NCBI GenBank assembly: GCA_937872065.1
Contig: CALMRA010000099.1
Span: 1 to 53,312, forward strand
DNA from: an uncultured Eubacteriaceae bacterium
GTDB taxonomy: Bacteria > Bacillota > Clostridia > Eubacteriales > Eubacteriaceae
DNA: 53,312 nt
Reading direction: 5' to 3'
The translations under genes and the position numbers were made by a program. Position 1 is the first letter of the stretch. Each line of letters starts with the position of its first letter. Under the pieces are notes generated by a model. It was not told where the DNA came from. It did no database searches and worked only from the letters and a program-made list of their open reading frames with translations. This document shows, one piece after another, positions 16,658 through 50,500 of this stretch.

Positions 16658-17240
16658 TAAATATTTCAGAAAGAAAGTTTACTACTTTCGCAACTATCTG
16701 ACGACAGAACAGACCGACCCTGCAAGAAATATTGTGATCTCCAGATACGGAAGCAGCGCCGGTCCGATATTCGACGAGGCGCTGGCTCATTTAAATCCGT
16801 TTACGGTCTTTACGGAAGCGGAGTTTCAGCAGGTGACCGACACCGTTTTTTCCCTGAACGGTACGGTGTTTACAGGCAGTGACGTCTGCGAAACGCTTCG
16901 CGCTTCGACCTTTGTTTTTCCGCACATCATCAGTTCCGGGAAAGAAATCGAAGAGTATGCTCTCGAAAAAACCGACAGTATGTCCCGGAAGATTATCCGC
17001 GAGCTGTGCAGAGTGGCCAATACGGCCGGCCGTGAGCTGATGATTCAGGTGCTGGTCGACAAATACAATATTACGGAGATGCTTGCGCTCTTTCCCGGGG
17101 AACCGGGCTGGGAGCTGCAGGAAGGCAACAGGATCTTTGAGATGTTTGAAAAAGAAACGGATGAAGCGGGAATTTACGTCACGTCCAAGGGACTGCCTAA
17201 CGTCGCCTATACGGCCTTCGGTCTGATGATCGGAAACTGA
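16593..17240 (+). CDS. Protein resembling the B12-dependent methionine synthase activation domain
   Basis: The 215-residue product is not one I recognise outright, but the order of motifs fits the MetH reactivation fold. It has a helix-rich N-terminus, then [13 protein letters not shown] and a hydrophobic strand followed by [13 protein letters not shown] (compare the L-GKDI-HL, TLG-EID pattern), then NTAGRELM, then [19 protein letters not shown] and [18 protein letters not shown] (compare PGYPxW and GI-LT-S---P--S---G). Small stand-alone proteins of this type accompany corrinoid enzymes in Clostridia. The S-adenosylmethionine-binding residues cannot be confirmed by eye. It overlaps proS by 65 bases and shares one base with the DUF2284 gene after it. 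Confidence 0.5.
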
Positions 17241-23719: not shown

Positions 23720-23812
23720 TATAGAGTAGACGAAGGTGCGTCTAGTGTTAAGAGATGGGAAGTTGCTCTTAAACGAATTCGAAAGAAACGGTACCTGCGT
23801 CGCTTCCGCTAT
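23720..23812 (+). promoter_or_regulatory. Tetrahydrofolate (THF) riboswitch
   Basis: The segment follows the THF aptamer: ATAGAGTAGA at the 5' end pairs through ATAG with CTAT at the 3' end. GTGTTAAGAGATGGGA and a CGAATTCG apical part follow, then GGTACCTGCG, and TTCCGCTAT closes it. THF riboswitches are known to sit before folT in Clostridia and to reduce expression when folates are plentiful, usually by blocking translation. The gene downstream is a FolT-type transporter. Confidence 0.78.
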
Positions 23813-23897
23813 CAATCAACAGCTCCCGGCGACGGGAGGCCCGGCCGCAAGGATGCGGGCAATATCTTTCGGGATAACGAGTTGTACAAGCGCGGAA

Positions 23898-28763: not shown

Positions 28764-29303
28764 ATGTATGTATATCAACAGAGAGATGCGCTGCTCAATA
28801 TCCAGAATCTGACTGCAGTTACGATTACCGGAAGTCTGAGCGAGGATACCCTCGGGCGGATCGAACGCGACCCCGGCAGCTGGCAGTTCGGAGGCCATAT
28901 TCTTGAGCCCGTGTTAATCGAAAGCACGGAGGACTCGGGAAGAGCTCTCGGAGCGGTGCGGATCAATCTTGAAGGAAATCTGTACGACGAAGATCTGACT
29001 GCCTGGGACGGACTGTTTGACGTTGTCTGCGGTTATTATCAGATGCCGCTCAGAGACGGGACCATCCGCGCTCTGTTCGGAGCAGGAGAAGCGCCTGTTT
29101 ACCGTGCGGTCGATGTGATCCATCTGCTCAGACGGACCGGCGCGAACGACCGGATTATCGCGCAGTCTGCGGGAGTCGATGCCGCCGGAATAGACGACTG
29201 GGAGGACGGCAATGTGCCGCTGGATGTTCAGAGTCTCGGAAAACTTGAGAAAGCCTGGCCGCTGCTCCCGTGGGAGCTCATCGTCAGCTGTTTTCAGAAC
29301 TGA
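28764..29303 (+). CDS. Unrecognised soluble protein
   Basis: The 179-residue product does not match a family I know. The first half alternates beta strands (AVTITGSL, HILEPVLIES, AVRINLEGNL), and the second half is helical with a helix-turn-helix-like run (IIAQSAGVDAAGIDDWEDG). It has no signal peptide or membrane helix. GGAGG lies a few bases before ATG 28764. It ends 14 bases before a leucine-rich-repeat-like gene in the same direction, so they are likely cotranscribed. Confidence 0.7.
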   Translation: MYVYQQRDALLNIQNLTAVTITGSLSEDTLGRIERDPGSWQFGGHILEPVLIESTEDSGRALGAVRINLEGNLYDEDLTAWDGLFDVVCGYYQMPLRDGTIRALFGAGEAPVYRAVDVIHLLRRTGANDRIIAQSAGVDAAGIDDWEDGNVPLDVQSLGKLEKAWPLLPWELIVSCFQN

Positions 29304-29317
29304 AGACAAGGAGAATT

Positions 29318-30676
29318 ATGTTTTTTTCTTACGATTCCAAGCATGCAAAGCTGCTTAAAGCGATCGCTAACGATCCGGATACACCGTTTACGCTGCGTGA
29401 AGTTTTCGAAGACCCGGCGCTCGGGCAGGCTGTCGCAGACGCGGTCGGTCTGGACGGACTTAAAACAAAGACGAATCTGATCAGGCTGGGTCTGCTGGAA
29501 AAACTCGACGCGCCGGGCCGGGGAATCGAGTCGCTGGAGGGACTTGAGTTTCTGAACGGACTCAGGGAGGCGGACCTGTCCGGAAACAAGATCCGCAGGC
29601 TTCCCGATTATACGCGAAACGTACCGAATCTGTATAAAAACAAGGACACGCTCGCTTATATGGATCTGGCAGGGAATCCGTTTCTCGCGCCGGAATCACT
29701 GTTTTCGCTGGACTCCACCGAAGGGAGAAAACATTTTCTGAATGCGTTCAAGGCGCCTGAAGCTCGGTTCGGACTGGGAGAAGCGAGAGAGAAGATCGCC
29801 GGAACGGTTTCGCCGGATCCTGAACTGGTCAGAATCGCTTTTGAGAGGTTCCTGCCGGGTTCCGTCACGGCAGGACTTTCCCCTGATGAGAAAGAAGCGC
29901 TGACAGACGCGCTTCTACTGAAATTTGCGGCCGGGAAGAACCTGTATCACGATAAGCCGGTCTGGAAGGATCAGGTGATCCTGAACGACGGAAAGCCGGC
30001 GGTCCGGGCGTCCGACCGGCTCGCAGCCCTCGATACACAAAAGGGGATCGAAACGGCGGCCGCTCATATCGAACAGATGCTGCTGCCCGAGGATCTGTAT
30101 CTGATCCGAGTGCTCTCGCGGCAGGCTTCAGCGGGGACGCCGCGGGAGGTATACGGGGCCGGTTCTGATATCCCGGGAATTTCCGCGTGGTATGCGCAGC
30201 ATCCCGAAGCCCTTTCGGACGGCTATATCCACACGGACAGGGGCTGGGAGCAGAAGGACGATTACGCTTCGCTGCGGCAGTCCCAGATGAGCTCTGCGGA
30301 GGAAAAGAGACTTTCCCGCCTCGGGGACGAGGGCATCAGGAACGAATATGCGGCGTATCTGAGGACCCGGAGAGTACTGGAAACCTATCTGAAGGATCAT
30401 CCGGAACGGGAACGCGCCGTTTCAAAGCTGCTGACAAAGTCTGAAGAATTTGTCGACGGCTACCTGGATCAGTATCTGAAGCTGCAGGACAACGCAATGC
30501 TGTCCGATGTCCAGAAGCAGACACTGGCGGAAGCAGGCGAACAGTTCGGAAAGTTTGTCTCGGGATACGAAAAAGATGCCCGCGCGTTTTTTGATCAGGA
30601 TATTTTCGACCTGGAGGTCGAAATGAAGTATATCGATATGCTCGCGGAAGCGGGCAGAGACATCGGCGGAAAATAA
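29318..30676 (+). CDS. Soluble protein with short leucine-rich-repeat segment
   Basis: The 452-residue protein has an N-terminal helical part, then two or three LRR-like units (about 70-135: LEGLEFLNGLREADLSGNKI, then LAYMDLAGNPF), then about 300 residues of charged helical sequence with no domain I can name. ATG 29318 has AAGGAG five bases upstream. It lacks a signal peptide. Its partners in the same direction are the unknown 28764 gene and a membrane glycerophosphodiesterase, but no joint function can be read. Confidence 0.75.
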   Translation: MFFSYDSKHAKLLKAIANDPDTPFTLREVFEDPALGQAVADAVGLDGLKTKTNLIRLGLLEKLDAPGRGIESLEGLEFLNGLREADLSGNKIRRLPDYTRNVPNLYKNKDTLAYMDLAGNPFLAPESLFSLDSTEGRKHFLNAFKAPEARFGLGEAREKIAGTVSPDPELVRIAFERFLPGSVTAGLSPDEKEALTDALLLKFAAGKNLYHDKPVWKDQVILNDGKPAVRASDRLAALDTQKGIETAAAHIEQMLLPEDLYLIRVLSRQASAGTPREVYGAGSDIPGISAWYAQHPEALSDGYIHTDRGWEQKDDYASLRQSQMSSAEEKRLSRLGDEGIRNEYAAYLRTRRVLETYLKDHPERERAVSKLLTKSEEFVDGYLDQYLKLQDNAMLSDVQKQTLAEAGEQFGKFVSGYEKDARAFFDQDIFDLEVEMKYIDMLAEAGRDIGGK

Positions 30677-35359: not shown

Positions 35360-37654
35360 ATGGATTTTACACATAAATTCGGAACGGGCCCGATGCCCGT
35401 GTCACGGCTGATCGACGAATATTTCCGACCCGCCAAGGTACGCCGTTCCGGTTCTCAGACAGGTCAGCTCGGAAAGGTCTACTCGAATCCTCCTTTCAGT
35501 TTCAGAGAACAGGATTTTCTCAGTAAATTTAAATATTTATACATTATCGGACGCGAATACGAGATTCCGAGAGAAGACCGTCAGAAGACGATCGGAACGT
35601 CTAATGTTCAGACGTACAAGCGGCAGGCTGAGGAACTGATCAATCTGCAGAGCTGGAACGATCTGATCCGGTTCGAGAAAGCGCATCCGGGTACCCTTGC
35701 GCTGGTTCCGGGGCCGTGTCAGATCTGCGCGAGAACCCACGAGGGCTGCGGCCGGCCGAAAAACGAGCCGTGCCATCATCTGGATCTGATGCGTTTTTCG
35801 ATGGAAGGAATCGGGATCGACGCGGACGCTCTGGCAAAATTCGAGCTGGGGCTGCTGCTCCGGTGGCCGGATGACGGACATCTTCCGCAGAAGCTCAGCG
35901 CAGTCATGGGAATTCTGTCCAACGAGAAAATTCCGATGGATGAGGTTAAATCCTTCTTTCCGGATGCGGAAAAGAATTTTCTGAATTTTAAGGAAAAGGA
36001 AGTACTCGATCCGAATATTCTCTCGCCGGAGATCAAACGGCAGAGCAGCTGGCTCGACAACCAGAAGCGCCAGCGCAGAGAAGTCGAGGACAGAGAAGGA
36101 AAGCGGACAGCGTGGCTCGGCTTCAAGGACAATTCCCTCGATTCAGGGGCATACGTGGCAAATCAGAGCTGGAAGACAGCGGAGGACGAAGCGGAGCTGC
36201 CCTCAGAGCATCTGGCGAACGCGCCGAAACCGGAAACGGAGCTGCCGGCCGAACACATCGGAAAGCAGCTGTCGGAGTCCGGACTCCCCTCCGAACATAT
36301 CAAGGTGAAGTCCAGGGAGCCGGTCGTCGACGAAGAGCCTGAAAGACGGCATGTGGAAGCTGCGCCGGCCGCAGCGGCGGCAGCAGAGCCTGTGCCCGAA
36401 GACAGCGCGGCGGAAGCCCCCGCTGACAGCGAAGAGGACGATTCGAAATATAAATGGCTCGGCTTCAAGCGAAGTCTCGCTGAAGCCAATGAAAATTTCT
36501 ATAACAGACCGATTCCGAAGTTCAATGTGAAGGATGAAGAAGCTGCGGAGGAAGAAGCAGACGCCGAAGTAGTTTTTGACGACGATCTCGGACCTGAAGA
36601 AGGTCCGCAGGATCAGGGCCTTCCGAAATGGAAATCGAATCCGGCGCTGGCGCTCCAGCCCGGAGAAGAAGGCTATGAGGAAAGCGTCGGAGCCGCTTCT
36701 GAACAGGCCGCTCCCGAAACGCCCTTTGACGATGACGTAAATCCGTCCGAGTTTTCCGGTGATTCCGGCCTCCCGAAATGGAAGTCGAATCCGGCGCTGG
36801 CACCCGAACCGGATAATCCGGCGGAGAAGGTGCCCGCATATGCGGCGGAATCCATCGTCGAGTCGGAACGCAAGATGAGCGCTCTTCAGGAACCCGGCAT
36901 GGACAGCAGCGCGGCTGTAAAGCCCGCCTCGAAGCATGCCGATGAGGCGCCTGAGCCGGAGGATACGAAAACAGGCGAATTCGAACGCTTCATCCGCAGT
37001 ATGGATGTCGAAACCCTCAGGAAGATTATCGAAGTCAAGCTGGGAGATAACGGGACGAAAACGACGTCTCAGCCGGATGATGAAGCGATGAAGGCCCGAC
37101 GTCGGGAAGAACAGAAGGCCCAGCTCCAGAGCGCGCTTACCGCAAAGTTTGAGGAACGGCAGCGAATGAAGGCCGAACGGGAACGTGAAGAAGCGGCCCG
37201 TCTGCAGGCGCAGTCAGACCTTGCCGCGGCAGAGGAGCGCAGACAGCAGGAAGCGAAGGACGCGGAACGCGAAAAGATCCGGGCCGAGATTGAAGCCAGA
37301 CTGCTTGAGAAACAGGCTGCCCAGAAGAAGCAGGCTGAGGAAGCCGCACAGCGCGCCAGAGAAGAAGAGGAAGCGAAGCGGAAGGCAGAGGACGAGAAAC
37401 GCATGGCCGAGGAAGAGCGGCGCAGGATCGAGGAAGCGAAGCTTCCCGACGCGTCGACGGTCGAGAATGTTCTCGGCGCAGCATTGTCTATCGCACAGGC
37501 TGTTTCCGGCGGACAGACGGCAGATCAGGCAGATAAGCCCGCGGCCGTTCAGAAGCCGAAAAAAGCTCCTGTCCGTCACAGCTATAAATGGCTCAATTAC
37601 AAATCTGAGCTGAAGGAAGATGACGACAGCGTCACAGACTGGAAGAAGAGATGA
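35360..37654 (+). CDS. Degenerate DUF2284 domain fused to a long repeat-rich, coiled-coil tail
   Basis: Residues about 15-200 of this 764-residue protein follow DUF2284: NPPFSFREQDFLSKFKYLYI stands where family members have the CPP motif, and CQICARTHEGC with PCHH (Cys120, 123, 130, 138) is the second cysteine cluster. The first cluster has lost all its cysteines. The remaining 560 residues are acidic and probably disordered, with recurring short motifs: WLGFK (252, 366; WLNYK at 744), LP-EH (280, 295, 309), GLPKWKSNPALA (420, 470) and FDDD (406, 456). A highly charged Glu/Arg/Lys/Ala coiled coil spans about 575-695. It is cytoplasmic by sequence. Its stop overlaps the isochorismatase start. 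The function is unknown; the motifs suggest a scaffold that binds several copies of a partner. Confidence 0.8.
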   Translation: MDFTHKFGTGPMPVSRLIDEYFRPAKVRRSGSQTGQLGKVYSNPPFSFREQDFLSKFKYLYIIGREYEIPREDRQKTIGTSNVQTYKRQAEELINLQSWNDLIRFEKAHPGTLALVPGPCQICARTHEGCGRPKNEPCHHLDLMRFSMEGIGIDADALAKFELGLLLRWPDDGHLPQKLSAVMGILSNEKIPMDEVKSFFPDAEKNFLNFKEKEVLDPNILSPEIKRQSSWLDNQKRQRREVEDREGKRTAWLGFKDNSLDSGAYVANQSWKTAEDEAELPSEHLANAPKPETELPAEHIGKQLSESGLPSEHIKVKSREPVVDEEPERRHVEAAPAAAAAAEPVPEDSAAEAPADSEEDDSKYKWLGFKRSLAEANENFYNRPIPKFNVKDEEAAEEEADAEVVFDDDLGPEEGPQDQGLPKWKSNPALALQPGEEGYEESVGAASEQAAPETPFDDDVNPSEFSGDSGLPKWKSNPALAPEPDNPAEKVPAYAAESIVESERKMSALQEPGMDSSAAVKPASKHADEAPEPEDTKTGEFERFIRSMDVETLRKIIEVKLGDNGTKTTSQPDDEAMKARRREEQKAQLQSALTAKFEERQRMKAEREREEAARLQAQSDLAAAEERRQQEAKDAEREKIRAEIEARLLEKQAAQKKQAEEAAQRAREEEEAKRKAEDEKRMAEEERRRIEEAKLPDASTVENVLGAALSIAQAVSGGQTADQADKPAAVQKPKKAPVRHSYKWLNYKSELKEDDDSVTDWKKR

Positions 37655-38226
37655 AAGCTCTGATCCTTATCGATTATACGAACGATTTTGTCGCGGACGA
37701 CGGGAAGCTTACCACCGGCGCCGCCGGGCAGGCGATAGACGCCGCCGTTGCGCAGGCTGTCTCGGACGCCTGCACCAGAGGAGACATGATTTTCTCGGTG
37801 AACGATCTGCATCACGCAGGCGAGGCGGGTCATCCGGAAACGAAACTGTTTCCGCCTCACAATATTGAAGGTACGTCCGGCCGCGAGCTGTACGGCATGA
37901 CCGGCGAAGCCTTCGCCATGGCCAGGCAGGTTCGCCCTGAGAAGGCGGTATGGCTGGACAAGCTGCGCTACTCCGCCTTTGCGGGCACGCCTCTCGATAT
38001 CCTGCTGCGTCAGAACGGGATACATGAGATCGAACTGGCGGGTGTCTGTACGGATATCTGTGTTCTGCATACGGCGGTCGACGCCTACGACCTGAATTAC
38101 GACGTTACGGTCAGGCCGGAGCTGACTGCGAGCTTCAGTCCGGAAGGACATCGGTTCGCCCTGGCTCACTTCAGAAATTCGCTGGGATTTAACGTGCCGG
38201 AACCGGAAGAGGCCGATGGGGACTGA
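37651..38226 (+). CDS. Isochorismatase-family cysteine hydrolase
   Basis: The 191-residue enzyme has the family triad: Asp8 (LILIDYTNDF), Lys104 (WLDKLRYSAF) and Cys137 in GVCTDICVLHTA. Such enzymes hydrolyse small amides such as nicotinamide or cleave isochorismate; residues here are closest to nicotinamidase-like hydrolases but the substrate is open. Its ATG overlaps the stop of the DUF2284-repeat gene and its end overlaps the following gene by 11 bases, so all three are coupled. Confidence 0.9.
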   Translation: MKALILIDYTNDFVADDGKLTTGAAGQAIDAAVAQAVSDACTRGDMIFSVNDLHHAGEAGHPETKLFPPHNIEGTSGRELYGMTGEAFAMARQVRPEKAVWLDKLRYSAFAGTPLDILLRQNGIHEIELAGVCTDICVLHTAVDAYDLNYDVTVRPELTASFSPEGHRFALAHFRNSLGFNVPEPEEADGD

Positions 38227-39082
38227 AAAAACGAATGGTATCCCCGGATTTTCGAACGAGCCACCCGGTCTTTCGATGTTCTCGTGGTTCGGTTATTTTC
38301 AGACCGCTCCCGAGCGTTTCAGAATTATCAGAGACGCGGGCTTTGACGGAGTCATGCTCGCCTGGGAGGATGAGGAAGAGCCGGTACGGATCACGAAGGA
38401 ACACCAGACGGAGCTGGCCCGCATGGAGGGGCTGCGAGTCGTCAACGCCCACGCCCCGTTTATCGGATGGAACGATATCTGGAGAAAGAATCCCGCAGAG
38501 AATACGGATTTTCTCAGGAAGATGAAGGAGTGGATACGCGGATGCGGCCGGGAAAATATCCCGGCCTTCGTCGTCCATACCAGCGATATGGATCTCGGGA
38601 CAGGATATTCTGTGGAAAACGGGATTGCCTTTTTCTCCGAGCTGGCGGAGGAAGCCCAGCGCAGCGGCGTCAGACTGGCGGTCGAAAACGTGTCGCGCCA
38701 GTACCTGCTTCGAGCGGTGCTCGACAGGCTTGACGTACCCTCGGTGGGGATGTGCTACGACAGCTCCCACGACTACATGCTGCCCTGCGGACGTGGCAGA
38801 ATCCTGAAGGATTACGGCAGCCGGATCGCGGCGGTCCATCTGTCCGACAACGATCTGTATTACGACAGACACTGGATTCCCGGAGAAGGAAGGATACCCT
38901 TTGAAGAAATCGTTCCCGGGCTCTGCCGAAGCCCGCTTAACGAAATCTCCCTCGAGGTATGCGCCCGGAAGGACGATCCGCGAAGTCCCGAAGCATTCTG
39001 CGGACAGGCCTTTGAGGCCGCGCGCAGGCTTTCGGAAATTTACAGGAACGCGGCGTTATATTGTGAACCTGACACACATTGA
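38216..39082 (+). CDS. Sugar phosphate isomerase/epimerase-like TIM barrel (AP endonuclease family 2)
   Basis: The 288-residue protein has the xylose-isomerase-like barrel: GFDGVMLAWEDE, NAHAPFIGWND, FVVHTSDM, VRLAVENVSRQ, MCYDSSHDYM, AAVHLSDNDLYYDRHWIPGEG, and ISLEVCA, with Glu, Asp and His metal ligands at the expected strand ends. Members isomerise or epimerise sugars or cleave AP sites; the HWIPGEG phrase favours the sugar group. AGAGG lies just before ATG 38216. It is the last gene of the three-gene operon and a terminator follows. Confidence 0.87.
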   Translation: MGTEKTNGIPGFSNEPPGLSMFSWFGYFQTAPERFRIIRDAGFDGVMLAWEDEEEPVRITKEHQTELARMEGLRVVNAHAPFIGWNDIWRKNPAENTDFLRKMKEWIRGCGRENIPAFVVHTSDMDLGTGYSVENGIAFFSELAEEAQRSGVRLAVENVSRQYLLRAVLDRLDVPSVGMCYDSSHDYMLPCGRGRILKDYGSRIAAVHLSDNDLYYDRHWIPGEGRIPFEEIVPGLCRSPLNEISLEVCARKDDPRSPEAFCGQAFEAARRLSEIYRNAALYCEPDTH

Positions 39083-39122: not shown

Positions 39123-39205
39123 AAGGCTCAGAAAATGATATAGTGAAACGAGTATTTTCGGAGCGGACAAGTCGGCAAATCTCTACGCATCCGAAATCGA
39201 ACTTT

Positions 39206-40585
39206 ATGCATGCATTTATGATATCCGGGACCGGTTCAGGTTCCGGCAAAACGACAGTCACCGCCGGCCTGATGAGGGCGCTGGCGGGCCGGCTCTGCGC
39301 GAAGGCGGGACGCGAGATCGTTCCGTTCAAATGCGGACCCGACTATATAGATCCGATGTTTCACCGGTTCGCCTGCGGTTCGCCGTCGGTCAATCTGGAT
39401 ACCGTGCTCCTCGGAGACGACGGAACGCGCAGAGCGTTCAACAACCGGATGGCAGGACGCGGACCCGGGGCCTGCGCGATCGTCGAAGGCGCGATGGGCC
39501 TGTACGACGGCCAGCGGGATACGGGAAAGGGATCGGCGGCGGATACCGCGGTCCTGCTCGATCTCCCGGTTTTTCTGATTATCGACGGCCGCGGGATGAG
39601 TCAGAGCGCGGCCGCTCTTGTGGGCGGCTTCCGGGACTACGATCCCCGGGTACGGATCTCCGGGATCATCGTGAACCGGATCAAAAACGAAAGCCACTAC
39701 AGACTGCTTTCGGAGATTATCGAAACACAGTGCGGGATCCCCTGTGTCGGATGGTTTCCCGAGGATCCGGCGCTCCGGCTCGAATCCCGCCATCTCGGGC
39801 TCATTCCGGCAGAGGAGCTGGAATCGCTGTCGGAGCTTCTCGACCGCGCCGCGGACAGCATCGCGGATCATTTCGATCTCGGAAGGATCCTCGAGCTCAG
39901 CTATATCGACGAGCCCGCGGAAGTTCCGGATCCCTTCGAGGGCTGTGAGGACCGTTACCGCGGGCTGCGTATCGGCGTCGCCCGGGACAAGGCCTTCAAT
40001 TTTTACTATACGGAAAATCTCGAGCTCCTGAAAAAACTCGGGATCGAACTGAAATTTTTCTCTCCGATCGCAGATGCGGCGCCGCCCGAGGTCGACGCGC
40101 TGTGGTTCGGCGGCGGCTATCCAGAGGTCTTCGCGGACAGGCTCGAAGAAAACGTTTCGATGCGGAAGGCGGTACGCGCCGCGCTCGAGGCCGGACTGCC
40201 CTGCTATGCGGAATGCGGCGGGCAGATCTACCTGGCTGAGAAGATCGTGCCGGGAGACGGGAAGCCCCGGGCGGGCGTCGGCTTCCTTCCGGACAGGATC
40301 CGGATGACGGACCGGCTGCAGCGCTTCGGCTACGCGGACCTTGAAATCGGGCTGGAGGGCAGAAGCTTCGGATTTCCCGTTCACGAATTTCATCACAGCG
40401 TCCTTGAGGGCGATGGGGACTACCGCGGCCGTCTGACAAAGGGAACGCGCAGATGGCCCGGGATGCAGGTAAGGAAGAACACCCTTGCGGGCTATCCCCA
40501 TTTTCATTTTTACGCGGCGCCGGACGGCCCCGCGCTACTCAGGGCGATGCTCGACAAGGCCGTTCTCCTGAAGGAGCAGCGATGA
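39206..40585 (+). CDS. cbiA: Cobyrinate a,c-diamide synthase
   Basis: CbiA amidates carboxylates a and c of cobyrinic acid with glutamine and ATP. The product (459 residues from ATG 39206) has the P-loop-like GTGSGSGKTTVTAGL, FKCGPDYIDPMFH, and VEGAMGLYDG in the dethiobiotin-synthetase-like half, and a glutamine amidotransferase half with the nucleophile Cys in PCYAECGGQIYL and HEFHHS. The start is uncertain: the frame is open back to GTG 39143, neither site has a good SD, and 39206 gives the family length. It leads the cbi cluster and overlaps the next gene by four bases. Confidence 0.93.
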   Translation: MHAFMISGTGSGSGKTTVTAGLMRALAGRLCAKAGREIVPFKCGPDYIDPMFHRFACGSPSVNLDTVLLGDDGTRRAFNNRMAGRGPGACAIVEGAMGLYDGQRDTGKGSAADTAVLLDLPVFLIIDGRGMSQSAAALVGGFRDYDPRVRISGIIVNRIKNESHYRLLSEIIETQCGIPCVGWFPEDPALRLESRHLGLIPAEELESLSELLDRAADSIADHFDLGRILELSYIDEPAEVPDPFEGCEDRYRGLRIGVARDKAFNFYYTENLELLKKLGIELKFFSPIADAAPPEVDALWFGGGYPEVFADRLEENVSMRKAVRAALEAGLPCYAECGGQIYLAEKIVPGDGKPRAGVGFLPDRIRMTDRLQRFGYADLEIGLEGRSFGFPVHEFHHSVLEGDGDYRGRLTKGTRRWPGMQVRKNTLAGYPHFHFYAAPDGPALLRAMLDKAVLLKEQR

Positions 40586-41517
40586 AGATCGTAACGGCAG
40601 CCGCGCCGGGCACCTGCGGCGAATATATTCAGGGGATCGTCGGCGGAGAGCCCTGCCTTGTGTCTTCGCCGGTCGATCTGTGGAGCACGGCCAGAGCCTG
40701 GACCACAGAGGGCCCGGGTCTTCGCCTGTGCGGCGAGAAGACGGACCGGGCGCTGAGGATCTTTGCGCAGGACAGAGGACTTGATTTGTCCGGACTCCGC
40801 ATCGAGGTCTCCTCCGAGATCCCGAAGCTCAAGGGCATGGCCAGCAGCACGGCCGATATCTGCGCGGCGGTTTCGGCCGCGGCCGGCTGCTTCGATATTC
40901 GGATCGGTCCGGACGAGCTGGCGTCGGTCTGCACCCGGGTCGAACCCAGCGACAATCTGATGTATCCAGAGCTCAATCTGTTCAGCCACTATACAGGAGA
41001 GATCTTCGACCGCTTCGGCTGTTCGATCTCCGCACGGGTTCTCGCCCTCGATTTCGCGGAGAATGTCTCGACGCTGGAGCTGGGACGGGACGCGGAATTC
41101 CGCAAGACGGAAGAAGCCTTCGCCCCCTGCGCCTCGATGCTCAAGGATGGCGCGCGCCGGGGGGATCTCGATCTGATCGGCCGGGCGTGTACGCTGTCGG
41201 CCAGACTCAATCAGGAGATGCAGTACAAGCCCAGGCTCGAACTCATTATCAGCCTGTGCGAAAGCTTCGGAGGCGCAGGCGTGATGATCGGCCATTCCGG
41301 GAGCATCGTCGGGGTGCTCCACAACGAGGGTTTTGACGAGACCGGATTTCTGACGGCCTTCAGGCGTGAGGTGCCCGCAGGCGAGGCGCCGGACTGGATG
41401 CGCCTTCATCTGATCGCCGGGGGCGTTCGTCACAGTATCGAAGAAATCCCGGAGACCGAAGGATATACAGGCGGATGTGGGAACGGAGCCGCGTATTTAT
41501 GCGGCGGCCGCAGATAA
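40582..41517 (+). CDS. GHMP kinase, L-threonine kinase (PduX)-like
   Basis: The 311-residue protein begins AAPGTCGEYIQG, the PduX-type variant of the GHMP first motif, and has the ATP-binding loop PKLKGMASSTADICAA and a third motif near GGAGVMIGHSGS. PduX makes L-threonine-phosphate, the precursor of the aminopropanol linker of cobalamin. Its place between cbiA and cbiC supports that role. AAGGAG lies before ATG 40582, which overlaps the cbiA stop. Confidence 0.87.
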   Translation: MKIVTAAAPGTCGEYIQGIVGGEPCLVSSPVDLWSTARAWTTEGPGLRLCGEKTDRALRIFAQDRGLDLSGLRIEVSSEIPKLKGMASSTADICAAVSAAAGCFDIRIGPDELASVCTRVEPSDNLMYPELNLFSHYTGEIFDRFGCSISARVLALDFAENVSTLELGRDAEFRKTEEAFAPCASMLKDGARRGDLDLIGRACTLSARLNQEMQYKPRLELIISLCESFGGAGVMIGHSGSIVGVLHNEGFDETGFLTAFRREVPAGEAPDWMRLHLIAGGVRHSIEEIPETEGYTGGCGNGAAYLCGGRR

Positions 41518-41575
41518 GCCCGCAGCCTGTTAAGATAATAATTAAGGTAGATTGAACAAAAACATAGAGAATATA

Positions 41576-42223
41576 ATGGAAAAAATGAACTATATCAACG
41601 ACCCTCAGGCAATCGAACGGGAGAGCTTCCGAATCATCACGGAGGAGCTCGGTGAGAATCTGCCGGCGGAGGAAATACGCGACATCGTTCTGCGGATTAT
41701 CCATACGACTGCGGATTTCGAATATGCGCAGCTTATCGAGTTTAAGAACGACGCGGTAAATGCGGGACTGAAGGCCCTCTCGGAGGGCTCGAAAATCTAC
41801 GCGGATACCTCGATGATCCGAAACGCGGTGAACAGCCGCGCCCTCGGACTCCAGGGCTGCGAGATCGTAAGCTACGTCCACGACGAAGATGTCCGCGAGG
41901 AGGCGAGGGCGCTCGGGATCACCCGATCTGCCGCCGCGATGAAAAAGGCGCTCAACGACGGCGACGTGAAGATCTTCGCGATCGGCAACGCGCCCACCGC
42001 GCTGTACACACTTATCGAACAGATCGAAGCCGGCTCGCCGGCTCCGGAGCTTATCGTCGGAGCGCCCATCGGCTTCGTCGGAGCGGCGGAATCGAAGGCC
42101 GCCCTCGACAGGCTCGATGAAGCCGGCGTGCCGTATATCCGGATCAACGGACGGAAGGGCGGGAGCCCCGTCGCGGCCGCGATCCTCAACGCGATGCTGT
42201 ACAGGCTCGGAAGGGAGTGGTAG
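41576..42223 (+). CDS. cbiC: Cobalt-precorrin-8 methylmutase
   Basis: CbiC moves the C-11 methyl group to C-12, forming cobyrinic acid. The 215-residue product has the family's ESFRIITEEL, HTTADFEYA (the catalytic His) and GNAPTALYTLIE and APIGFVGAAESK segments. Two in-frame ATGs (41576, 41585) and a TTG at 41552 preceded by AAGG are possible starts; I chose 41576 by family length. The 58-base spacer before it could hold a weak internal promoter (TAAGAT). Confidence 0.93.
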   Translation: MEKMNYINDPQAIERESFRIITEELGENLPAEEIRDIVLRIIHTTADFEYAQLIEFKNDAVNAGLKALSEGSKIYADTSMIRNAVNSRALGLQGCEIVSYVHDEDVREEARALGITRSAAAMKKALNDGDVKIFAIGNAPTALYTLIEQIEAGSPAPELIVGAPIGFVGAAESKAALDRLDEAGVPYIRINGRKGGSPVAAAILNAMLYRLGREW

Positions 42224-42224
42224 C

Positions 42225-42941
42225 ATGACGGGAAAACTGACGGGAGTCGGCATCGGTCCCGGCACGCCGGATCTTCTGACGGTACGGGCAGTACGGGCGA
42301 TCCGGGCTGCGAAGACGGTATTCGTGCCGAAGGGCAAAAACGGGAAACCGGGCGTCGCGCTTACAACGGCCGGTGAATATATTCCGGAGACGGCGCAGGT
42401 AATCGAAATGGATTTTCCGATGGTTTCCATCTCGGGAGAGGCGGACAGGCTGGACGAACAGTGGCATGCGAACGCGGATATCGTCAGGGAAGCTCTCCAG
42501 AACGGAGACGGCGTCTTTCTGACGCTGGGCGACCCGATGGTCTATTCGACCTATTCGTACATCATCGATTTTCTGAAGTCTCAGGGAGTCTCGACGGAGA
42601 CGATCCCGGGGATCACGTCCTTCTGCGCGCTGGCGTCAAGGCTGGAGATTCCCCTCACCCAGGGCGAAGAATCACTGGCCATCGTCTCGATGACCCAGCC
42701 TGACGATGTGATCCGCGATATTGTAAAAATGAACAGAAATGTGATCGTCATGAAGGCCTCGGGCCGGAACGAATTCCTCGCGCAGCTTCTCGAGGAGCTC
42801 GGTCTCGAGGAACAGTTCTGCCGCGTCTCGAATATCGGGATGGCGAACGAGACGGTCTCGTCTGATATTGAAGAACTGAAGGGAAGGATCCCGTACTTTT
42901 CGACGATCCTGATCAAAAAAGAATATGAATTCGGAAACTGA
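42225..42941 (+). CDS. cbiL: Cobalt-precorrin-2 / precorrin-2 C20-methyltransferase
   Basis: CbiL adds the C-20 methyl group from S-adenosylmethionine. The 238-residue protein has the tetrapyrrole methylase start GVGIGPGTPDLLTVRAVRAI, GDPMVYSTYSYI and IPGITSFCALASRL. AAGGGAG precedes ATG 42225, one base after the cbiC stop. The end overlaps cbiD by 17 bases. Confidence 0.94.
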   Translation: MTGKLTGVGIGPGTPDLLTVRAVRAIRAAKTVFVPKGKNGKPGVALTTAGEYIPETAQVIEMDFPMVSISGEADRLDEQWHANADIVREALQNGDGVFLTLGDPMVYSTYSYIIDFLKSQGVSTETIPGITSFCALASRLEIPLTQGEESLAIVSMTQPDDVIRDIVKMNRNVIVMKASGRNEFLAQLLEELGLEEQFCRVSNIGMANETVSSDIEELKGRIPYFSTILIKKEYEFGN

Positions 42942-44103
42942 AGCGGGCGCCGGACGTCTGATCCGGGTCGGTGATAAAATGCTGCGCTGCGGCTATACGA
43001 CAGGCTCCTGCGCTGCCGCGGCTGCTCAGGGAGCCGTTCTGATGCTGGCGACGGGAATCGCGCCGGAGTCGGTAACCATCGACACGCCCTCCGGGCAGGA
43101 ACTCAGGCTCCAGCTCGAGGACTGCAGCCCCGGCGCGCTGCGCGCGTCCTGTGCGGTCCGAAAGGACGGCGGGGACGATCCGGACGCGACGGACGGACTT
43201 CTCATCTACGCGTCCGCCGAATATACGGGCGGACACGGTATCGAATTCGCTGCCGGAGACGGCGTCGGAACCGTTACGAAAAAGGGACTGCAGATCCCGC
43301 CGGGAGAACCGGCGATCAATCCGGTTCCGAGACAGATGATCGAACACGAGGTCCGCAGGGCCCTCGACAAGATCGGAAAGAATCCCGACGCGGGGATCCG
43401 CATCACGGTAAGCGTGCCGGGCGGAGCGGAAATCGCGGCCAGGACCTTCAATCCGCGTCTCGGCATCGAGGGCGGACTGTCGATTCTCGGGACCAGCGGA
43501 ATTGTCGTGCCGATGAGCGAGGACGCGCTGACAGAATCCATGCGTCTGGAGCTGTCGGTCAGGAAGGAGAAGCGCGTCTCGGACGGAAAACCGCTGTCCG
43601 TCGTGTATGTTCCGGGCAATTACGGCGCGGACTTCGCGGGATCCCTCGGAATCGACCGGGATTCTGCGGTGCGCATCAGCAACTACGCGGGCTTCATGCT
43701 GGATGAGGCCCGGTCTCTCGGCTTCACGAAGATCCTGCTGGTCGGCGATCTCGGAAAGCTTGTGAAGATCGCGGGGGGATGCTTCCAGACCCATTCCGCA
43801 GTAAGCGACGCCAGGGTGGAAATCCTGACGGCGAATGCCGCGCTGCTGGGCGCGGACCGCGATGTGCTGGCAAAGATCATGGAATGCCCGACGACGGCCG
43901 CGGCTGCCGATATCATCCGGGAAGCCGGACTTGATGATCTGTGGCAGGTCCTTGCGGACAAGATCCGTCTGCGCTGCCAGCGGCGCGTGTTCGGCGAGAT
44001 CGAGGTCGGAGTCGTCCTGTTCGAACGCGGATACGGACTGCTGGCTCAGACGGAAAACGCCGCCGGCATGATCGACGGGGCGAAGGCGGAATGCGAAGCT
44101 TAG
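42925..44103 (+). CDS. cbiD: Cobalt-precorrin-5B C1-methyltransferase
   Basis: CbiD methylates C-1 in the anaerobic cobalamin pathway. The 392-residue protein begins, after a short lead, with the family signature LRCGYTTGSCAAAAAQGA and contains GTVTKKGLQIPPGEPAINPV and FTKILLVGDLGKLVKIAGG. Its presence marks the oxygen-independent route. It overlaps cbiL; 101 bases with no gene or clear signal follow before cbiE. Confidence 0.95.
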   Translation: MNSETEAGAGRLIRVGDKMLRCGYTTGSCAAAAAQGAVLMLATGIAPESVTIDTPSGQELRLQLEDCSPGALRASCAVRKDGGDDPDATDGLLIYASAEYTGGHGIEFAAGDGVGTVTKKGLQIPPGEPAINPVPRQMIEHEVRRALDKIGKNPDAGIRITVSVPGGAEIAARTFNPRLGIEGGLSILGTSGIVVPMSEDALTESMRLELSVRKEKRVSDGKPLSVVYVPGNYGADFAGSLGIDRDSAVRISNYAGFMLDEARSLGFTKILLVGDLGKLVKIAGGCFQTHSAVSDARVEILTANAALLGADRDVLAKIMECPTTAAAADIIREAGLDDLWQVLADKIRLRCQRRVFGEIEVGVVLFERGYGLLAQTENAAGMIDGAKAECEA

Positions 44104-44204
44104 CCTGATGCGCCGGCATAAACAAATTGAGATCCCGGCAGGCAGTCCAGCCGCAGCGGATCGAGAATATCAAATCAGAAATGAATCGGAAGTTGAGTTA
44201 ATAA

Positions 44205-44945
44205 ATGAACCCGAAGACAGACGAACCGGTTTCCCGGGAAATAAAACAGAATATCACAGAGGAGCTCCGGGACGGCAGGAGAACCGCGATACATCCCCTG
44301 CTGACAGTGGCGGGACTGGGTCCGGGGCATCCCGACTACATCCTGCCGAAGGTTCTGAAGCTGTGTCAGGAAGCGGACGTGCTCGTCTCGGGCGAACGTC
44401 ATCTCGAGAGCCTCAGGCAGGTCTTCGGAGAAAACTGGAGGCCGGAGGACCATATTCTGCTTGGCTCCGGCCGGCCGCTTGGCGAGAGCTTCGAGGATAT
44501 CCGCGCGGCCCTCGGGAAGGGGTGCCGGACGGTGATCCTCGTTTCGGGAGACACAGGCTACTACAGCATGCTTGGCTACATCAGACGAAGGCTCCCGGAG
44601 GAGCCGATGACGGTGGTTCCCGGAATCTCGTCGCTGCAGTATTTTTTCGCGGCCCTCGGGATGAGCTGGGAAGACGCCCATATGATGAGCCTTCACGGCA
44701 GGGAGCAGGATCTTGCCGGCGCGCTTGAAGACGGACGGCCCGTGGGGCTGCTGACGGACGGAGAGCACGGGACGGCGTGGATCGCCCGCCAGATGATCGG
44801 GAAGTATCCTGACCGGAGAATCTACACAGGCGAAAATCTGTCGTATCCGGAGGAGAAGATCTGCTCGCATCTGCCGGCAGAGGCGCTTGAATATCAGGAA
44901 GAAGGGATGGCGGTCGTGATCATCGCCGGGAAAAGCAGTACATGA
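44205..44945 (+). CDS. cbiE: Cobalt-precorrin-7 C5-methyltransferase
   Basis: CbiE methylates C-5 of the corrin ring. The 246-residue protein carries a tetrapyrrole methylase fold after about 30 extra N-terminal residues: VAGLGPGHPDYILPKVLK, VLVSGERHLESL, LVSGDTGYYSMLGYI and VVPGISSLQYFFA. The SD is weak (GGAAGTTGAG). Its end overlaps cbiT by four bases; in many bacteria CbiE and CbiT are fused or adjacent. Confidence 0.94.
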   Translation: MNPKTDEPVSREIKQNITEELRDGRRTAIHPLLTVAGLGPGHPDYILPKVLKLCQEADVLVSGERHLESLRQVFGENWRPEDHILLGSGRPLGESFEDIRAALGKGCRTVILVSGDTGYYSMLGYIRRRLPEEPMTVVPGISSLQYFFAALGMSWEDAHMMSLHGREQDLAGALEDGRPVGLLTDGEHGTAWIARQMIGKYPDRRIYTGENLSYPEEKICSHLPAEALEYQEEGMAVVIIAGKSST

Positions 44946-45544
44946 ACGAAAGACATCTCCCGTACAGGGACAGTGATTTTATCAGAGCGCGGGTCCCGAT
45001 GACCAAGCGCGGAATCAGGATACTGACGACAGGTCTGCTGGGAATCGAGCCTGCGGACACGGTGGTCGACATCGGCGCGGGGACAGGCGGACTCACCATA
45101 GAAGCCGCGCGACAGGTGCCGAAGGGCCGGGTCTACGCGGTAGAGCATAACGAGGAAGCCTGCGATCTGATCGAACAGAACGTCCGGAAATTCGGAGCGG
45201 ACAACGTCCGACTGATCCGGGGACATGCGCCGGACGCGCTGTGGCCCGTCAAAAGCTGCGACAGGATTATCGTCGGCGGGTCGGGACACGAGCTCGAAGG
45301 CATATTCAAGTGGGCAGCCGCCCATCTGAAACCCGGCGGACGGATCGCCGCAAATTTTGTAACCATTGAAAACGCCGCGGAATGCGTCAGGCTCATGAAC
45401 GAATATTTCGACGAGCCCGAGCTGATTCAGGCGGGCATTTCCGAAGGAACCACGACCGGAGGTCTGACGCTGCTCAAGGCGCAGAATCCTGTCTTTATCG
45501 TAACGGGTCTCCAGCCGCTGCCGGAGCCGGACATCGACTGCTGA
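44942..45544 (+). CDS. cbiT: Cobalt-precorrin-6B C15-methyltransferase (decarboxylating)
   Basis: CbiT methylates C-15 and removes the acetate at C-12. The 200-residue protein opens with DSDFIRARVPMTKRGIR, the family's substrate-loop motif, followed by the Rossmann SAM site VVDIGAGTGGLTIEAA and IIVGGSGHELEGI. It starts in the cbiE stop (ATGA-type overlap) and is followed after 13 bases by the metal-sensor gene. Confidence 0.95.
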   Translation: MNERHLPYRDSDFIRARVPMTKRGIRILTTGLLGIEPADTVVDIGAGTGGLTIEAARQVPKGRVYAVEHNEEACDLIEQNVRKFGADNVRLIRGHAPDALWPVKSCDRIIVGGSGHELEGIFKWAAAHLKPGGRIAANFVTIENAAECVRLMNEYFDEPELIQAGISEGTTTGGLTLLKAQNPVFIVTGLQPLPEPDIDC

Positions 45545-45557
45545 AACGGAGGAACAG

Positions 45558-46025
45558 ATGACAGACAGCGAAACAGCGGAAATCCGCGGACAGGAAGATT
45601 TTATCGAGACTGCCCGGGAAGCAGAGGAAAATGTGAACGAAGAGATCAAGCCAGCAGGACATACCCACACTCATGAGGACGGTACGGTCCATGAGGATCA
45701 TACCCATACCCACGCGGACGGGACGACTCACGCGGACCATGCCCACGGTCATAATCACGGGCATACCCATAAGAACACCCAGGCCGTGCTGAACAGGCTG
45801 TCCCGGGCGATCGGCCATCTCGAAGCGGTCAAACGCATGGTCGAGGAAGGTCGGGACTGCACCGACGTGCTGATCCAGATCGCGGCGGTTCGCTCCGCGG
45901 TGAACAATGTCGGAAAGATCATCCTGCAGGACCATATCGACCACTGCATCGTCGAAGCGGTGGAAGAAGGAGACAGCCAGGCCCTCGAGGATCTGAACCA
46001 GGCGATCGATAAATTTATCAAATAA
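45558..46025 (+). CDS. CsoR/RcnR-family metal-sensing repressor with His-rich N-terminal arm
   Basis: Residues 72-155 match the CsoR/RcnR (DUF156) repressors, all-helical proteins that release DNA on binding a metal: LNRLSRAIGHLEAVKRMV, then CTDVLIQIAAVRSAV, then DHIDHCIVEAV. Cys101, His126 and Cys130 have exactly the Cys-x24-His-x3-Cys spacing of the CsoR metal site, with His129 as a possible extra ligand. The first 71 residues are a fused arm with 14 histidines at 35-71, mostly in HTH and HAH patterns, able to hold cobalt, nickel or zinc. The gene is the last of the cbi run, and a CsoR-type operator lies 40 bases past its end. Cobalt is the likely signal, by context. Confidence 0.82.
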   Translation: MTDSETAEIRGQEDFIETAREAEENVNEEIKPAGHTHTHEDGTVHEDHTHTHADGTTHADHAHGHNHGHTHKNTQAVLNRLSRAIGHLEAVKRMVEEGRDCTDVLIQIAAVRSAVNNVGKIILQDHIDHCIVEAVEEGDSQALEDLNQAIDKFIK

Positions 46026-46217: not shown

Positions 46218-46266
46218 GAAGACTCAGCGTACAGCGCTTTTTCTGTCTTCAGGAAAAGCTTTTTTT
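46218..46266 (+). terminator. Riboswitch terminator with competing antiterminator
   Basis: GCTTTTTCTG (46236-46245) and CAGGAAAAGC (46250-46259) form a stem with one G-T pair, then T7: a rho-independent terminator. GAAGAC (46218-46223) can instead pair with GTCTTC (46245-46250), which takes the loop and inner stem and excludes the terminator. This is a transcriptional expression platform. Confidence 0.75.
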
Positions 46267-46300: not shown

Positions 46301-47551
46301 ATGCAGCTGGCAGTAGCAGGAATCAGTCACAATAAAGCCCCTCAGGACGTGCGGGAAAAAGCGTCGTTTACGAAGCGCAGGGCCGTCGAGGGGATGAATA
46401 CGCTCCTTGGCGAGACGCAGATCGAAGAGGCGATGATCCTGTCGACGTGCAACCGGAGCGAGATTTACGCGATATCTGAGGAGCCGGGAGAAGCGGCGGA
46501 GATCCTGTCGGATTTTTATGTCAGACAGGCGCCGGAGCTCGCGGACTATCTGTACTGGAAGACGGGGGACGAAGCGGTCCGCCATCTGTTCAGGGTAGCG
46601 TCGGGCTTCGATTCGATGATCCTCGGCGAGGACCAGATTCTCGGACAGACGAAGCAGGCGCTGGATCTGTCCGCATCGGCGGGCGCGTCAGGAAAATATC
46701 TGAACAAGATCGTCCGGGAAGCCGTGACCTACGCGAAAAAGACAAAGGCGAAGTATTCGGTATCGGAATCGCCCCGCTCGCTGTCCGCGACGGCCGTCAA
46801 GCAGATTATGCGGATGGTGCCGGACTATGCGGACAAGAGGGTGCTGATCATCGGCTCGGGCAAGATGGGACTGCTCGCGCTGCGCTATATGGCGGAGGAG
46901 GGCTTCACCGACGTTACGATGACGAACCGGACCTATCATCCCGGGGACGAATACCAGACGATCTACAGATCGCTGAACGTGATCCCCTACGACGACCGCT
47001 ACGATTTCGTGAAGGATACGGATATCGTGATCTCGGCGACGGCCTCTCCTCATCTGGTCCTGAAGCGGAGCCTGATGCCCCGGCGCAGGAAGCCTCTGCT
47101 CATCGCGGACCTCGGGATGCCCCGGGATGTGGATACGGAGCTTGCGGATGACGAAGAGATCACGCTGCTGTCCATCGACGATTTTACGCAGCTCTTCGAC
47201 GAGAGCGACCGCCGGCTGAAGGAGGTCGCCCGTCTTGCCGAGAAGGAGATCCGGGAAGAGGCCGAGGCGGTTGAATCGTGGATCGCGAAGACCCGTACCG
47301 ACGGACTCACCGGACGGCTCATGAATCAGGCCAGGGAGCACGCGGACGAAACCATCGAGATCCTGAATTCCCGCTATCAGTTTACGGGCAGGGACAGAGA
47401 GTTTCTCGAAAAGATCGTCCATTCGCAGTTTCGGCAGATGGTCATGCCGGCTGTGCTCGGACTCAGGACCATCGACGACACGGAGCAGATCGGAACCATC
47501 GAGGACGCCGCCGCGATCCTGACCGCCTGCGCCCGGGAGAAGAGCGAATGA
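46301..47551 (+). CDS. hemA: Glutamyl-tRNA reductase
   Basis: HemA reduces glutamyl-tRNA to glutamate-1-semialdehyde, the first committed step of the C5 tetrapyrrole route. The 416-residue product has the catalytic Cys50 in ILSTCNRSEIY, LFRVASGFDSMILGEDQILGQ, and the NADPH domain with LIIGSGKMGLLA. ATG 46301 has AGGAA upstream; an in-frame TTG at 46268 lies inside the terminator tail and is rejected. It overlaps the fusion gene by four bases. Control: CsoR-type operator and B12 riboswitch upstream. Confidence 0.95.
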   Translation: MQLAVAGISHNKAPQDVREKASFTKRRAVEGMNTLLGETQIEEAMILSTCNRSEIYAISEEPGEAAEILSDFYVRQAPELADYLYWKTGDEAVRHLFRVASGFDSMILGEDQILGQTKQALDLSASAGASGKYLNKIVREAVTYAKKTKAKYSVSESPRSLSATAVKQIMRMVPDYADKRVLIIGSGKMGLLALRYMAEEGFTDVTMTNRTYHPGDEYQTIYRSLNVIPYDDRYDFVKDTDIVISATASPHLVLKRSLMPRRRKPLLIADLGMPRDVDTELADDEEITLLSIDDFTQLFDESDRRLKEVARLAEKEIREEAEAVESWIAKTRTDGLTGRLMNQAREHADETIEILNSRYQFTGRDREFLEKIVHSQFRQMVMPAVLGLRTIDDTEQIGTIEDAAAILTACAREKSE

Positions 47552-50500
47552 AGGCGCCGCTGCTTTTTGAATTCGACGGTCGAAGAGCCGTCGTCTTCGG
47601 TGCCGGACCGACGGGGCTGCGCCGGGCGTTAAAATACGCGTCATACGGTGCGAAGGTGCGCGTCGTCGCGCCGGAAATCGGACCGGATGCGGCAGCCCGG
47701 CTTGAAGCTGCCGGGATCGAGATCCTCCGTGAGGGCTACGCTCCGGAGCACCTCGACGGCAATGATCTGTGCACCGCGGCGACGGACTCGCCGGAGCTTA
47801 ACCGGAGAATCGTCGCAGAATGCCGGAGTCGGGGCGTGCTTGCGGACAGCGCCAGCTCCGATCCGCACGCGGACTTTACGTTCCCGGCAGAATTCAGGCG
47901 CGGAAGCCTGAGCATAGCGGTCTCGACAGGCGGGCGCGCACCGGCGCTGGACAGACAGATCAGAGAGCAGCTTGAACGACAGTTCAGCCCGGAATCGGGG
48001 ATCGACGAGAGGATCGAACTGCTCGGGAAAATCAGGGAGCTGGCGCTGGGTCTCGGCCTGCCGGACGCGCGCCGGCGGATCAGAGCTTCGGCAGAGCTGG
48101 ATCTGCGGGAGCTGCGGACAGAACTCTCGGAGCTCGAAGGGCTGAAGCGAAACGGTCGGCCTGATCTTCCTGAACAGCTTGAGAAGACCGGTGAAAGAGG
48201 ATTGATGAAGAAATTACGGATCGGAACGCGCGGCTCGAAGCTCGCGCTGACACAGACAGAAAAATATGCGCAGACGCTTCGGGATGCGGTGCCGGGACTC
48301 GAGACGGAAACGATCGTGATCCGGACTACCGGAGACAAAAATCAGACGGACGCGCTCAATCAGATCGGCAGCAAGGGGATCTTTACGAAGGAGCTGGAGA
48401 CGGCTCTGCTTGACGGAGAGATCGACGTCGCGGTTCACAGCATGAAGGATATGCCCTCCGTACTGCCCGCCGGGCTGATCCTCGCGCCGCCTCCGGCCCG
48501 TGAGGACCCGGGCGACGTGATGGTCACCGCGGGGCCGCTGCCGGAGAATCCGAGGATCGGAACCGGAAGCCTTCGCAGAGAGGTCCAGCTGAAAGCGCTG
48601 TATCCGGACGCCGGGATCCTCGGGATCCGGGGCAACGTCGACACGAGGATCCGGAAGATGAAGGACGGCCAGTACGACGCGGTGGTCCTGGCGAAGGCCG
48701 GGCTGAACCGGCTCGGGATCACCGAAGAGAATACGGGCATTACGATTATGTCCCTGCCCGACAGCTTCGTACCGGCGCCTGCTCAGGGGATACTGGCGGC
48801 GGAGATCCGCAAGGACGACGGGGAAACTCTGGAGCTTCTGGCGAAAGCCTCCGATCCGGAGGCGCATCTGCAGATGCGGGCGGAGCGGCGCTTCCTCGAG
48901 GTTCTCGAAGGAAGCTGTCATATCCCGATCGGCGCCCACGCCTATCTTGAAGGCACCGGGATCAGGATCACCGGGATCTTCGGCGACGAAGACGGCCATG
49001 CGGTCTCCGGAACTATCGAGGCCTTCGAAGGGACGCCGGAGGAAGCGGGGGAAGCGATGGCTCATAAGCTCAAGGACGATTATCTTGCGAAATACGGACC
49101 GGTGCCGGGCCGGGTGATCCTTGCCGGAGCCGGCTGCGGTGATCCGGACTTCATTACGGTCGGTGCGGTCAGAGCGCTGGAAAGCTGCGATACGGTCGTG
49201 TACGACGCCCTCGCGAATCCCGAACTGCTGGACTACGCGCCGGACGCGGAGAAGATTTACGTCGGGAAACGCGCCTCCAACCATGCGCTGACTCAGGATG
49301 AGACCAACGCGCTGCTGGTAAGCCTGGCAAGGGACGGCAGGAACGTCGTCAGGCTCAAGGGCGGCGATCCGTATGTCTTCGGACGCGGCGGCGAAGAGGG
49401 CGAGGTCCTGTACGACGCCGGGGTTCCCTTCGAGGTGATACCCGGCATTACGTCCGCCATCGGCGGCCTCGGGGCCGCGGGGATTCCCGTGACCCACCGG
49501 GACTGCAACCAGGCCTTCGCCGTCGTTACGGGTCATCTGAAGAGCGAGGAGAACGAACTCGACTGGAACACCCTCGCCGCGTTTTCCGGAACTCTCGTAT
49601 TCCTGATGGGGGTTAAAAATCTCGGAAAGATCGCGGACAGCCTGATCGCGGCGGGAAAGCCCGCGGCAACGCCGGCAGCCGTCGTTCATTCCGCATCGAC
49701 GCCCGACCAGTACGTCGTCGACGGGACGCTGGGCAGCATCGAGACCCTTGCGAAAGAGCGGGGCGTGACCGCGCCGAGTCTGATCGTCATCGGAGACGTC
49801 GTCGGGAAGCGGGAAAAGCTCGATTTTCGGGCCGACAGAACTCTCTATCCTCTTGCGGGAAAACATGTGATCGTCACCCGGGCCAGAGCCCAGGCGTCGG
49901 AGCTGTCGGAGAAGCTGCGGGCCCTCGGGGCCCAGGCCCTCGAATACCCGACAATCCGGATCGAAACGGTGCCGGAGGAGCTGGAACGGCTCAGCGAAGA
50001 GATCGAGCGTCTGTCCGAATACACGAATCTGATCCTGACAAGCGCCAACGGCGTCGAGCTGTTCTTCGACGCGATGGACAGCCGGGGTCTCGATTCGAGA
50101 TCACTGGCCGGACTTCACATCACAGCCATCGGACCTGCGACCGCGAAAAAACTTCAGGAACACGGGATCGTACCGGACTTTATTCCGGCGAATTACATCG
50201 GCGAATCGCTGATCGAAGGGCTGCTGCCTCAGCTGGGCCCGGACGCGAGGATCCTGATGCCGCGTTCCGCGGACGCGAGACCCTATGTGGCGGAGCGTCT
50301 CGCAAAAGCCGCACAGGTCACGGAAATCGGGATCTACCGGACCGTACCTGACAGCGGAGACGACGATGTGCTCAGGAAGCTGGCGGAGGGAAAGATCGAC
50401 GCGGTGACCTTCACCAGCAGTTCGACTGCGAAGAACTTCGCGGACCGGCTGGAGCAGACCGGGACCGTCGTGCCGGAATCGACTGCCTGCGTCTCGATAG

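Follow-up and report, generated by a model that had tools for sequence, protein, structure and literature searches.

The gene described here lies at 35360-37654 (+) of a 53,312-nucleotide stretch of DNA, hereafter the window, from an uncultured Eubacteriaceae bacterium (contig CALMRA010000099.1). Its reading frame is uninterrupted, starts at an ATG with GAGGTAGG upstream, and encodes a 764 aa protein whose overall make-up is a small predicted metal-binding domain joined to a long disordered acidic tail. Here it stands first in a cobamide (vitamin-B12) synthesis operon, the arrangement of the following genes being operon-like:

35360-37654, +: whole gene, DUF2284-derived domain and W-box tail, 764 aa (open reading frame, start region)
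37651-38226, +: isochorismatase-like hydrolase (PF00857, E 1.7e-31; ATGA overlap with the DUF2284 gene)
38216-39082, +: TIM-barrel (AP_endonuc_2) enzyme, sugar-isomerase-like (Pfam; sub-threshold NCBIfam CbiR match)
39143-46025, +: cobamide genes CobB/CbiA, GHMP kinase, CbiC, CbiL, CbiD, CbiE, CbiT and a metal-sensing repressor

A strong terminator-like site (46236-46259) lies beyond the cobamide genes. Pfam confirmed the isochorismatase-like hydrolase and sugar-isomerase-like enzyme that a preliminary description of this DNA had named as neighbours. The TIM-barrel enzyme is 55% identical to its Eubacterium copy, and its best NCBIfam match is CbiR, which belongs to the same TIM-barrel superfamily (PMC7733943), with 25.1 bits for the window copy and 29.9 for that of Eubacterium, short of the cut-off of 105 bits. 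Elsewhere in the window we found a 468-aa protein without an NCBIfam match (29270-30676, +), which among the compared loci is common only to genome G019, there directly upstream of the DUF2284 gene; a single 1116-aa frame (47278-50628, +) with consecutive matches to the CysG N-terminal, HemC, CobA and HemD models, a four-part fusion for making siroheme/cobamide precursors; and a tetrahydrofolate riboswitch (23720-23813, +; Rfam RF01831, 73 bits).

Relatives mostly have the DUF2284 gene after divergent GGGtGRT and NifU-like genes; it is followed in some loci by the isochorismatase gene (adjoining the DUF2284 gene in 8 of 21), and then by MTAP, MtnA and the TIM-barrel gene. The methylthioadenosine-salvage genes MTAP and MtnA, together with the TIM-barrel gene, are present in nearly all of these loci, including three in which MtnA was masked by an antisense frame in gene picking; the window genome carries MtnA at another place. 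Background on the methylthioadenosine and 5'-deoxyadenosine salvage pathway is given in PMC10986504 and PMC12632272. The TIM-barrel gene is the most constant partner of the DUF2284 gene, nearly always linked to it, and is missing from the three family genomes that lack the DUF2284 gene (G001, G007 and G014, of which G001 and G014 are incomplete). Two genomes with the DUF2284 gene depart from this pattern: G036 has no TIM-barrel gene, and G031 has only a remnant of it. Directly downstream of the TIM-barrel gene, two other genomes (G002 and G010) have cobamide genes in the window's order, whereas in Eubacterium a cobalamin riboswitch and ABC transporter come first; no cobamide genes lie near the Pseudoramibacter, E. 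barkeri and g4 loci. We ruled out GGGtGRT and the NifU-like protein as obligate partners, as their genes lie elsewhere in the window genome and occur in f3 genomes without the DUF2284 gene. A cobamide link as a general property of DUF2284 was likewise unsupported, the neighbours of tail-less relatives looking unrelated by inspection.

Relatives and the DUF2284-derived core

When the proteins of 60 related genomes were searched, tail-bearing orthologues turned up in 33 genomes besides that of the window, all of them Eubacteriaceae; the remainder of the order had none. A class-wide profile search of 341 genomes also returned the long form only from Eubacteriaceae, every other match being a short DUF2284 protein with an open frame of 174-215 aa. 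Two peptide patterns run against about 85,000 species produced 31 loci, the few outside Eubacteriaceae being tail-less, and these loci span Eubacterium callanderi, barkeri and aggregans, Pseudoramibacter, Acetobacterium species and other Eubacteriaceae. The family that carries the tailed protein consists of gut, rumen and gas-eating bacteria. Phage records gave just two weak matches, both to the DUF2284 part, and comparison with viral structures returned nothing informative.

The core carries three features, listed here with the evidence for each:

35360-35974, +: folded core, residues 1-205, DUF2284 domain (PF10050, AF2, profile match to canonical DUF2284)
35450-35488, +: lost first cysteine cluster, residues 31-43 (alignment with canonical DUF2284 proteins)
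35717-35773, +: retained second cysteine cluster, Cys120/123/130/138 (alignment)

The assignment to DUF2284 made in the preliminary description held up. PF10050 matches residues 38-171 (E 8.9e-12; 45.5 bits against a Pfam cut-off of 25) and is the sole Pfam domain in the protein; profile comparison with canonical DUF2284 gave 99.5% probability over residues 9-197, and hhalign of the orthologue-family alignment against the DUF2284 family gave 100%. Stand-alone DUF2284 proteins have seven cysteines that rank with their best-conserved positions. The window protein has all four cysteines of the second cluster, as had been claimed, but three near-invariant columns of the first, kept in all canonical members aligned, are occupied by Gly31, Thr34 and Asn43. 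The reported loss of this cluster was therefore correct, as were the glycine and the asparagine, but the second replacement is Thr34 rather than serine. A conserved Trp is also changed, to Tyr, at position 41. Because the first cluster is missing, we class the protein as DUF2284-derived and not as an intact metal-binding member.

In a tree built from the core, the window protein and that of G019 are sisters (support 100/100), nested within the tail-bearing clade (100/100). The remaining members of the clade retain all seven cysteines, in what is likely an Fe-S or metal site, whereas G019 has lost the first cluster and nearly all of the second. This distribution places loss of the first cluster in the ancestor of the pair, with the second-cluster loss in G019 reconstructed as a later event. 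Cysteine loss is thus a derived state, a lineage-specific decay or repurposing that is not family-wide, and the earlier phrase "repurposed metal-binding domain" suits the window and G019 proteins but not most orthologues. Two further DUF2284 proteins came to light: a canonical one in the window at 17240-17821 (+), of 193 aa with all seven cysteines and two genes after prolyl-tRNA synthetase, and, at L036 (G000:C128) 974-2542 (-), a 523-aa protein that joins a methyltransferase-like domain to DUF2284, with an altered first cysteine cluster in the DUF2284 part (CHFGCRSGGSKTC).

We know of no function for DUF2284, which our literature search found in two papers, each time only as an item in a list. 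Neither the core sequence nor the DUF2284 profile identified a relative among PDB sequences, the profile giving only a chance-level match to CO dehydrogenase (E 0.56). An AF2 model of the core from 26 sequences was confident (pLDDT 92, pTM 0.87). Its top Foldseek match in the PDB, CblD, was not significant (E 0.49, probability 0.13). Structural re-alignment put CblD first, with Z 6.6 for five entries, ahead of TM0269, a MetH activation domain (5.8). Epoxyqueuosine reductase followed at 4.9 and flavin nitroreductases at about 4.3, and rows outside the nitroreductase group reached 3.6 at most; values under 8 may reflect a common arrangement and are not proof. The best matches form a coherent group connected with B12. 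The modelled core may weakly resemble B12-handling proteins, a similarity that we treat as a lead.

On this view the core might belong to the CblD/MetH-activation/QueG fold group and either bind B12 or activate corrinoid proteins; the tail motifs described below would then tether it to cobamide enzymes or to corrinoid proteins. Besides the ranking of structural matches, the position of the gene at the head of the window's cobamide operon points this way, and in three further genera the gene is followed by cobamide genes or by transport genes under riboswitch control. The Foldseek values and low Z scores count against it, however, as do the tail-less relatives and the Pseudoramibacter, E. barkeri and g4 loci, which lack cobamide neighbours. 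Local-mode hhalign of the DUF2284 family against QueG also found no homology (probability 0.8% or less); the MetH activation-domain profile had one clostridial match only, too few for comparison. We consider a corrinoid-handling core possible, if on balance unlikely.

W-boxes and other features of the tail

The full-length AF2 model (pTM 0.37) shows the folded core, a long helix and otherwise a low-confidence tail, in agreement with the disordered acidic tail described earlier. Within it we located the following:

36113-36127, +: W-box 1, WLGFK, residues 252-256 (orthologue alignment, motif count)
36197-36298, +: three LPxEH repeats, residues 280, 295 and 309 (common only to the window and G019)
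36446-36469, +: W-box 2, KYKWLGFK, residues 363-370 (W366, G368 and K370 invariant in 23 orthologues)
36506-36526, +: RPIPKFN motif following W-box 2, residues 383-389 (almost unchanged among orthologues)
36575-36652, +: FDDD...GLPKWKSNPALA duplication, copy one (motif count, DNA repeat)
36725-36802, +: FDDD...GLPKWKSNPALA duplication, copy two, 150 nt downstream (motif count, DNA repeat)
37082-37435, +: charged single alpha-helix, residues 575-692 (AF2 pLDDT about 93, composition)
37442-37504, +: LPDASTVENVLGAALSIAQAV helix, residues 695-715 (common to most non-Acetobacterium orthologues)
37580-37603, +: W-box 3, SYKWLNYK, residues 741-748 (alignment, motif count)

The three WLGFK-type motifs noted earlier are all present (W252, W366 and W744, the last box reading WLNYK). 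The middle and last boxes share a consensus of an acidic run, S/T-K/R-Y-K/Q-W-L-G-F-K, and acidic residues again. We aligned the tails of 23 orthologues, which range from 156 to 551 residues and are mostly unalignable around the boxes. In these tails, W[LIV]G[FY]K occurs 66 times against 0.004 expected from shuffles, and 21 of the 23 proteins have three boxes. Four Pseudoramibacter-type proteins have lost box 1 but carry two boxes at the C-terminus through duplication, so that their total is still three; the sister protein of G019 has one intact box only. Y364, L367, F369 and RPIPK are nearly invariant across the set. When a degenerate DNA pattern for the box was scanned against 37 genomes, every match fell inside this gene (20 family genomes with a match), and a reversed pattern used as a control gave zero matches in the same genomes. 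The idea that WLGFK recurs in further proteins of this genome is thereby rejected. The box peptide found no relatives among PDB sequences, nor did a literature search find WLGFK. The W-box is the main conserved feature of the tail and private to this protein in the genomes scanned. W-boxes 1 and 2 (36113-36127 and 36455-36469) use the same codons (TGGCTCGGCTTCAAG), possibly through recent copying or codon bias.

The other repeats are real but local. LPxEH occurs three times and PKWKSNPALA and FDDD twice each, as first reported, with GLPKWKSNPALA at residues 420 and 470 and FDDD at 406 and 456, and repeats in the window protein exceed shuffled expectation (11 repeated 5-mers against 0.6; 5 repeated 8-mers against 0). 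Compared with orthologues, PKWKSNPALA and FDDD are limited to the window protein and trace to a single duplication, visible in the DNA as a 44-nt copy, 86% identical, at a spacing of 150 nt. The proposal that the repeats serve as multivalent docking motifs therefore narrows to the W-boxes, which are conserved and held at three in number; LPxEH, PKWKSNPALA and FDDD are not general. The long helix is likewise specific to the window protein and absent from orthologues. It had been described as a 120-residue charged coiled coil, and a charged helix of 118 residues is indeed there, but with 55% charged residues, 11% large hydrophobic residues, no heptad, and 26 acid-base pairs at i to i+3/i+4 (17.6 expected, s.d. 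3.1), the modelled segment looks like a single alpha-helix, which is the better label. The short helix LPDASTVENVLGAALSIAQAV that follows it is amphipathic and kept in most genera other than Acetobacterium.

Lost cysteines and a highly divergent tail could mean that the gene is decaying and that the tail does no docking, acting only as a spacer or to aid solubility. The 764-aa frame is intact, however, and the boxes are strongly constrained, which disfavours such a reading and leaves it very improbable. Multivalent docking by the boxes, which we infer from their conservation, is well motivated. The boxes could also bind the protein's own DUF2284 core, causing autoinhibition or self-assembly; among the genomes scanned they accompany this protein and no other, and its own core would be the simplest obligate partner. 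However, G019 keeps box 2 although its core has strongly diverged, and the boxes are of low confidence in the full-length model, which is weak evidence. Self-binding seems unlikely to us.

Candidate partners and known systems

We favour, with about even confidence, a Eubacteriaceae-specific adaptor whose W-boxes would dock to a partner active in the metabolism of cobamides or of S-adenosylmethionine by-products. Each box would be a short linear motif that fits one kind of pocket on the partner, such that one protein could hold several partner copies, or several protomers of an oligomer, near its core. The spacers of the tail would set distance only and would therefore be replaceable, as where a single alpha-helix has been swapped in here. 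In the window lineage, where the first metal site has decayed, the core is probably a fold or binding platform that no longer performs the ancestral metal chemistry; in most relatives this platform would carry a metal site. The field of metabolism is suggested by the locus, with 5'-deoxynucleoside salvage in most relatives and cobamide biosynthesis here and in other genera, and cobamide or 5'-deoxynucleoside-salvage proteins are accordingly the candidates we would try first. The TIM-barrel enzyme cannot be the sole partner, since G031 keeps the gene and three boxes with only a remnant of the TIM-barrel gene. As MTAP and MtnA are widespread and the window genome has MtnA elsewhere, the neighbourhood may also reflect shared regulation only. 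The single intact box of G019 counts against the adaptor reading, and so would binding of the tail to the protein's own core.

Alternatively, the tail might collect the enzymes of the operon into a metabolon or condensate, a cluster or droplet such as the preliminary description had envisaged. A disordered, charged tail with multivalent aromatic boxes and a tight operon with two to four enzymes are consistent with this idea, but three near-identical boxes suit one kind of partner and not several enzymes, and we find it distinctly unlikely. Equally improbable in our judgement is a bolder form of the adaptor reading, a family-specific multivalent scaffold of acetogens and their relatives. Its core would be a one-time Fe-S domain folded like a B12 chaperone, and its three boxes would draw an enzyme of cobamide metabolism or of 5'-deoxynucleoside salvage into a shell-less cobamide-handling assembly.

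The tailed DUF2284 protein is kept in well-studied acetogens (Eubacterium and Acetobacterium), where its private motif offers a clean handle on the partner. A partner found through a tagged protein or box peptide would inform the role of DUF2284 and of its TIM-barrel and isochorismatase-like neighbours. Should it be a cobamide enzyme, the adaptor would represent a new way to organise B12 metabolism in bacteria that need B12 for methyl transfer.

The core of the window protein is homologous to DUF2284 (PF10050, predicted metal-binding) from about residue 9 to residue 197, with the second cysteine cluster retained, but compared with stand-alone members of about 173-209 aa it lacks the first cluster and has gained a 550-residue tail. 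The arsenite methyltransferase/DUF2284 fusion selenoprotein (NF041536; PMC13188914) likewise places DUF2284 within a larger protein; there the domain is joined to a methyltransferase, whereas here it is joined to a disordered tail with putative docking boxes. The modelled core may also have a weak overall fold likeness to nitroreductase-like B12 proteins (CblD/MMADHC, the MetH activation domain and QueG; Z 4.9-6.6); for QueG, profile comparison gave no sequence support.

CsoS2 and EPYC1 are multivalent disordered linker proteins with repeated short motifs. Like them, the window protein carries repeated short motifs in a disordered chain, here three conserved W-boxes in a tail of low AF2 confidence, a likeness of architecture for which we claim no homology. 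Unlike CsoS2 and EPYC1, it also has a conserved folded domain, and its client is a putative one.
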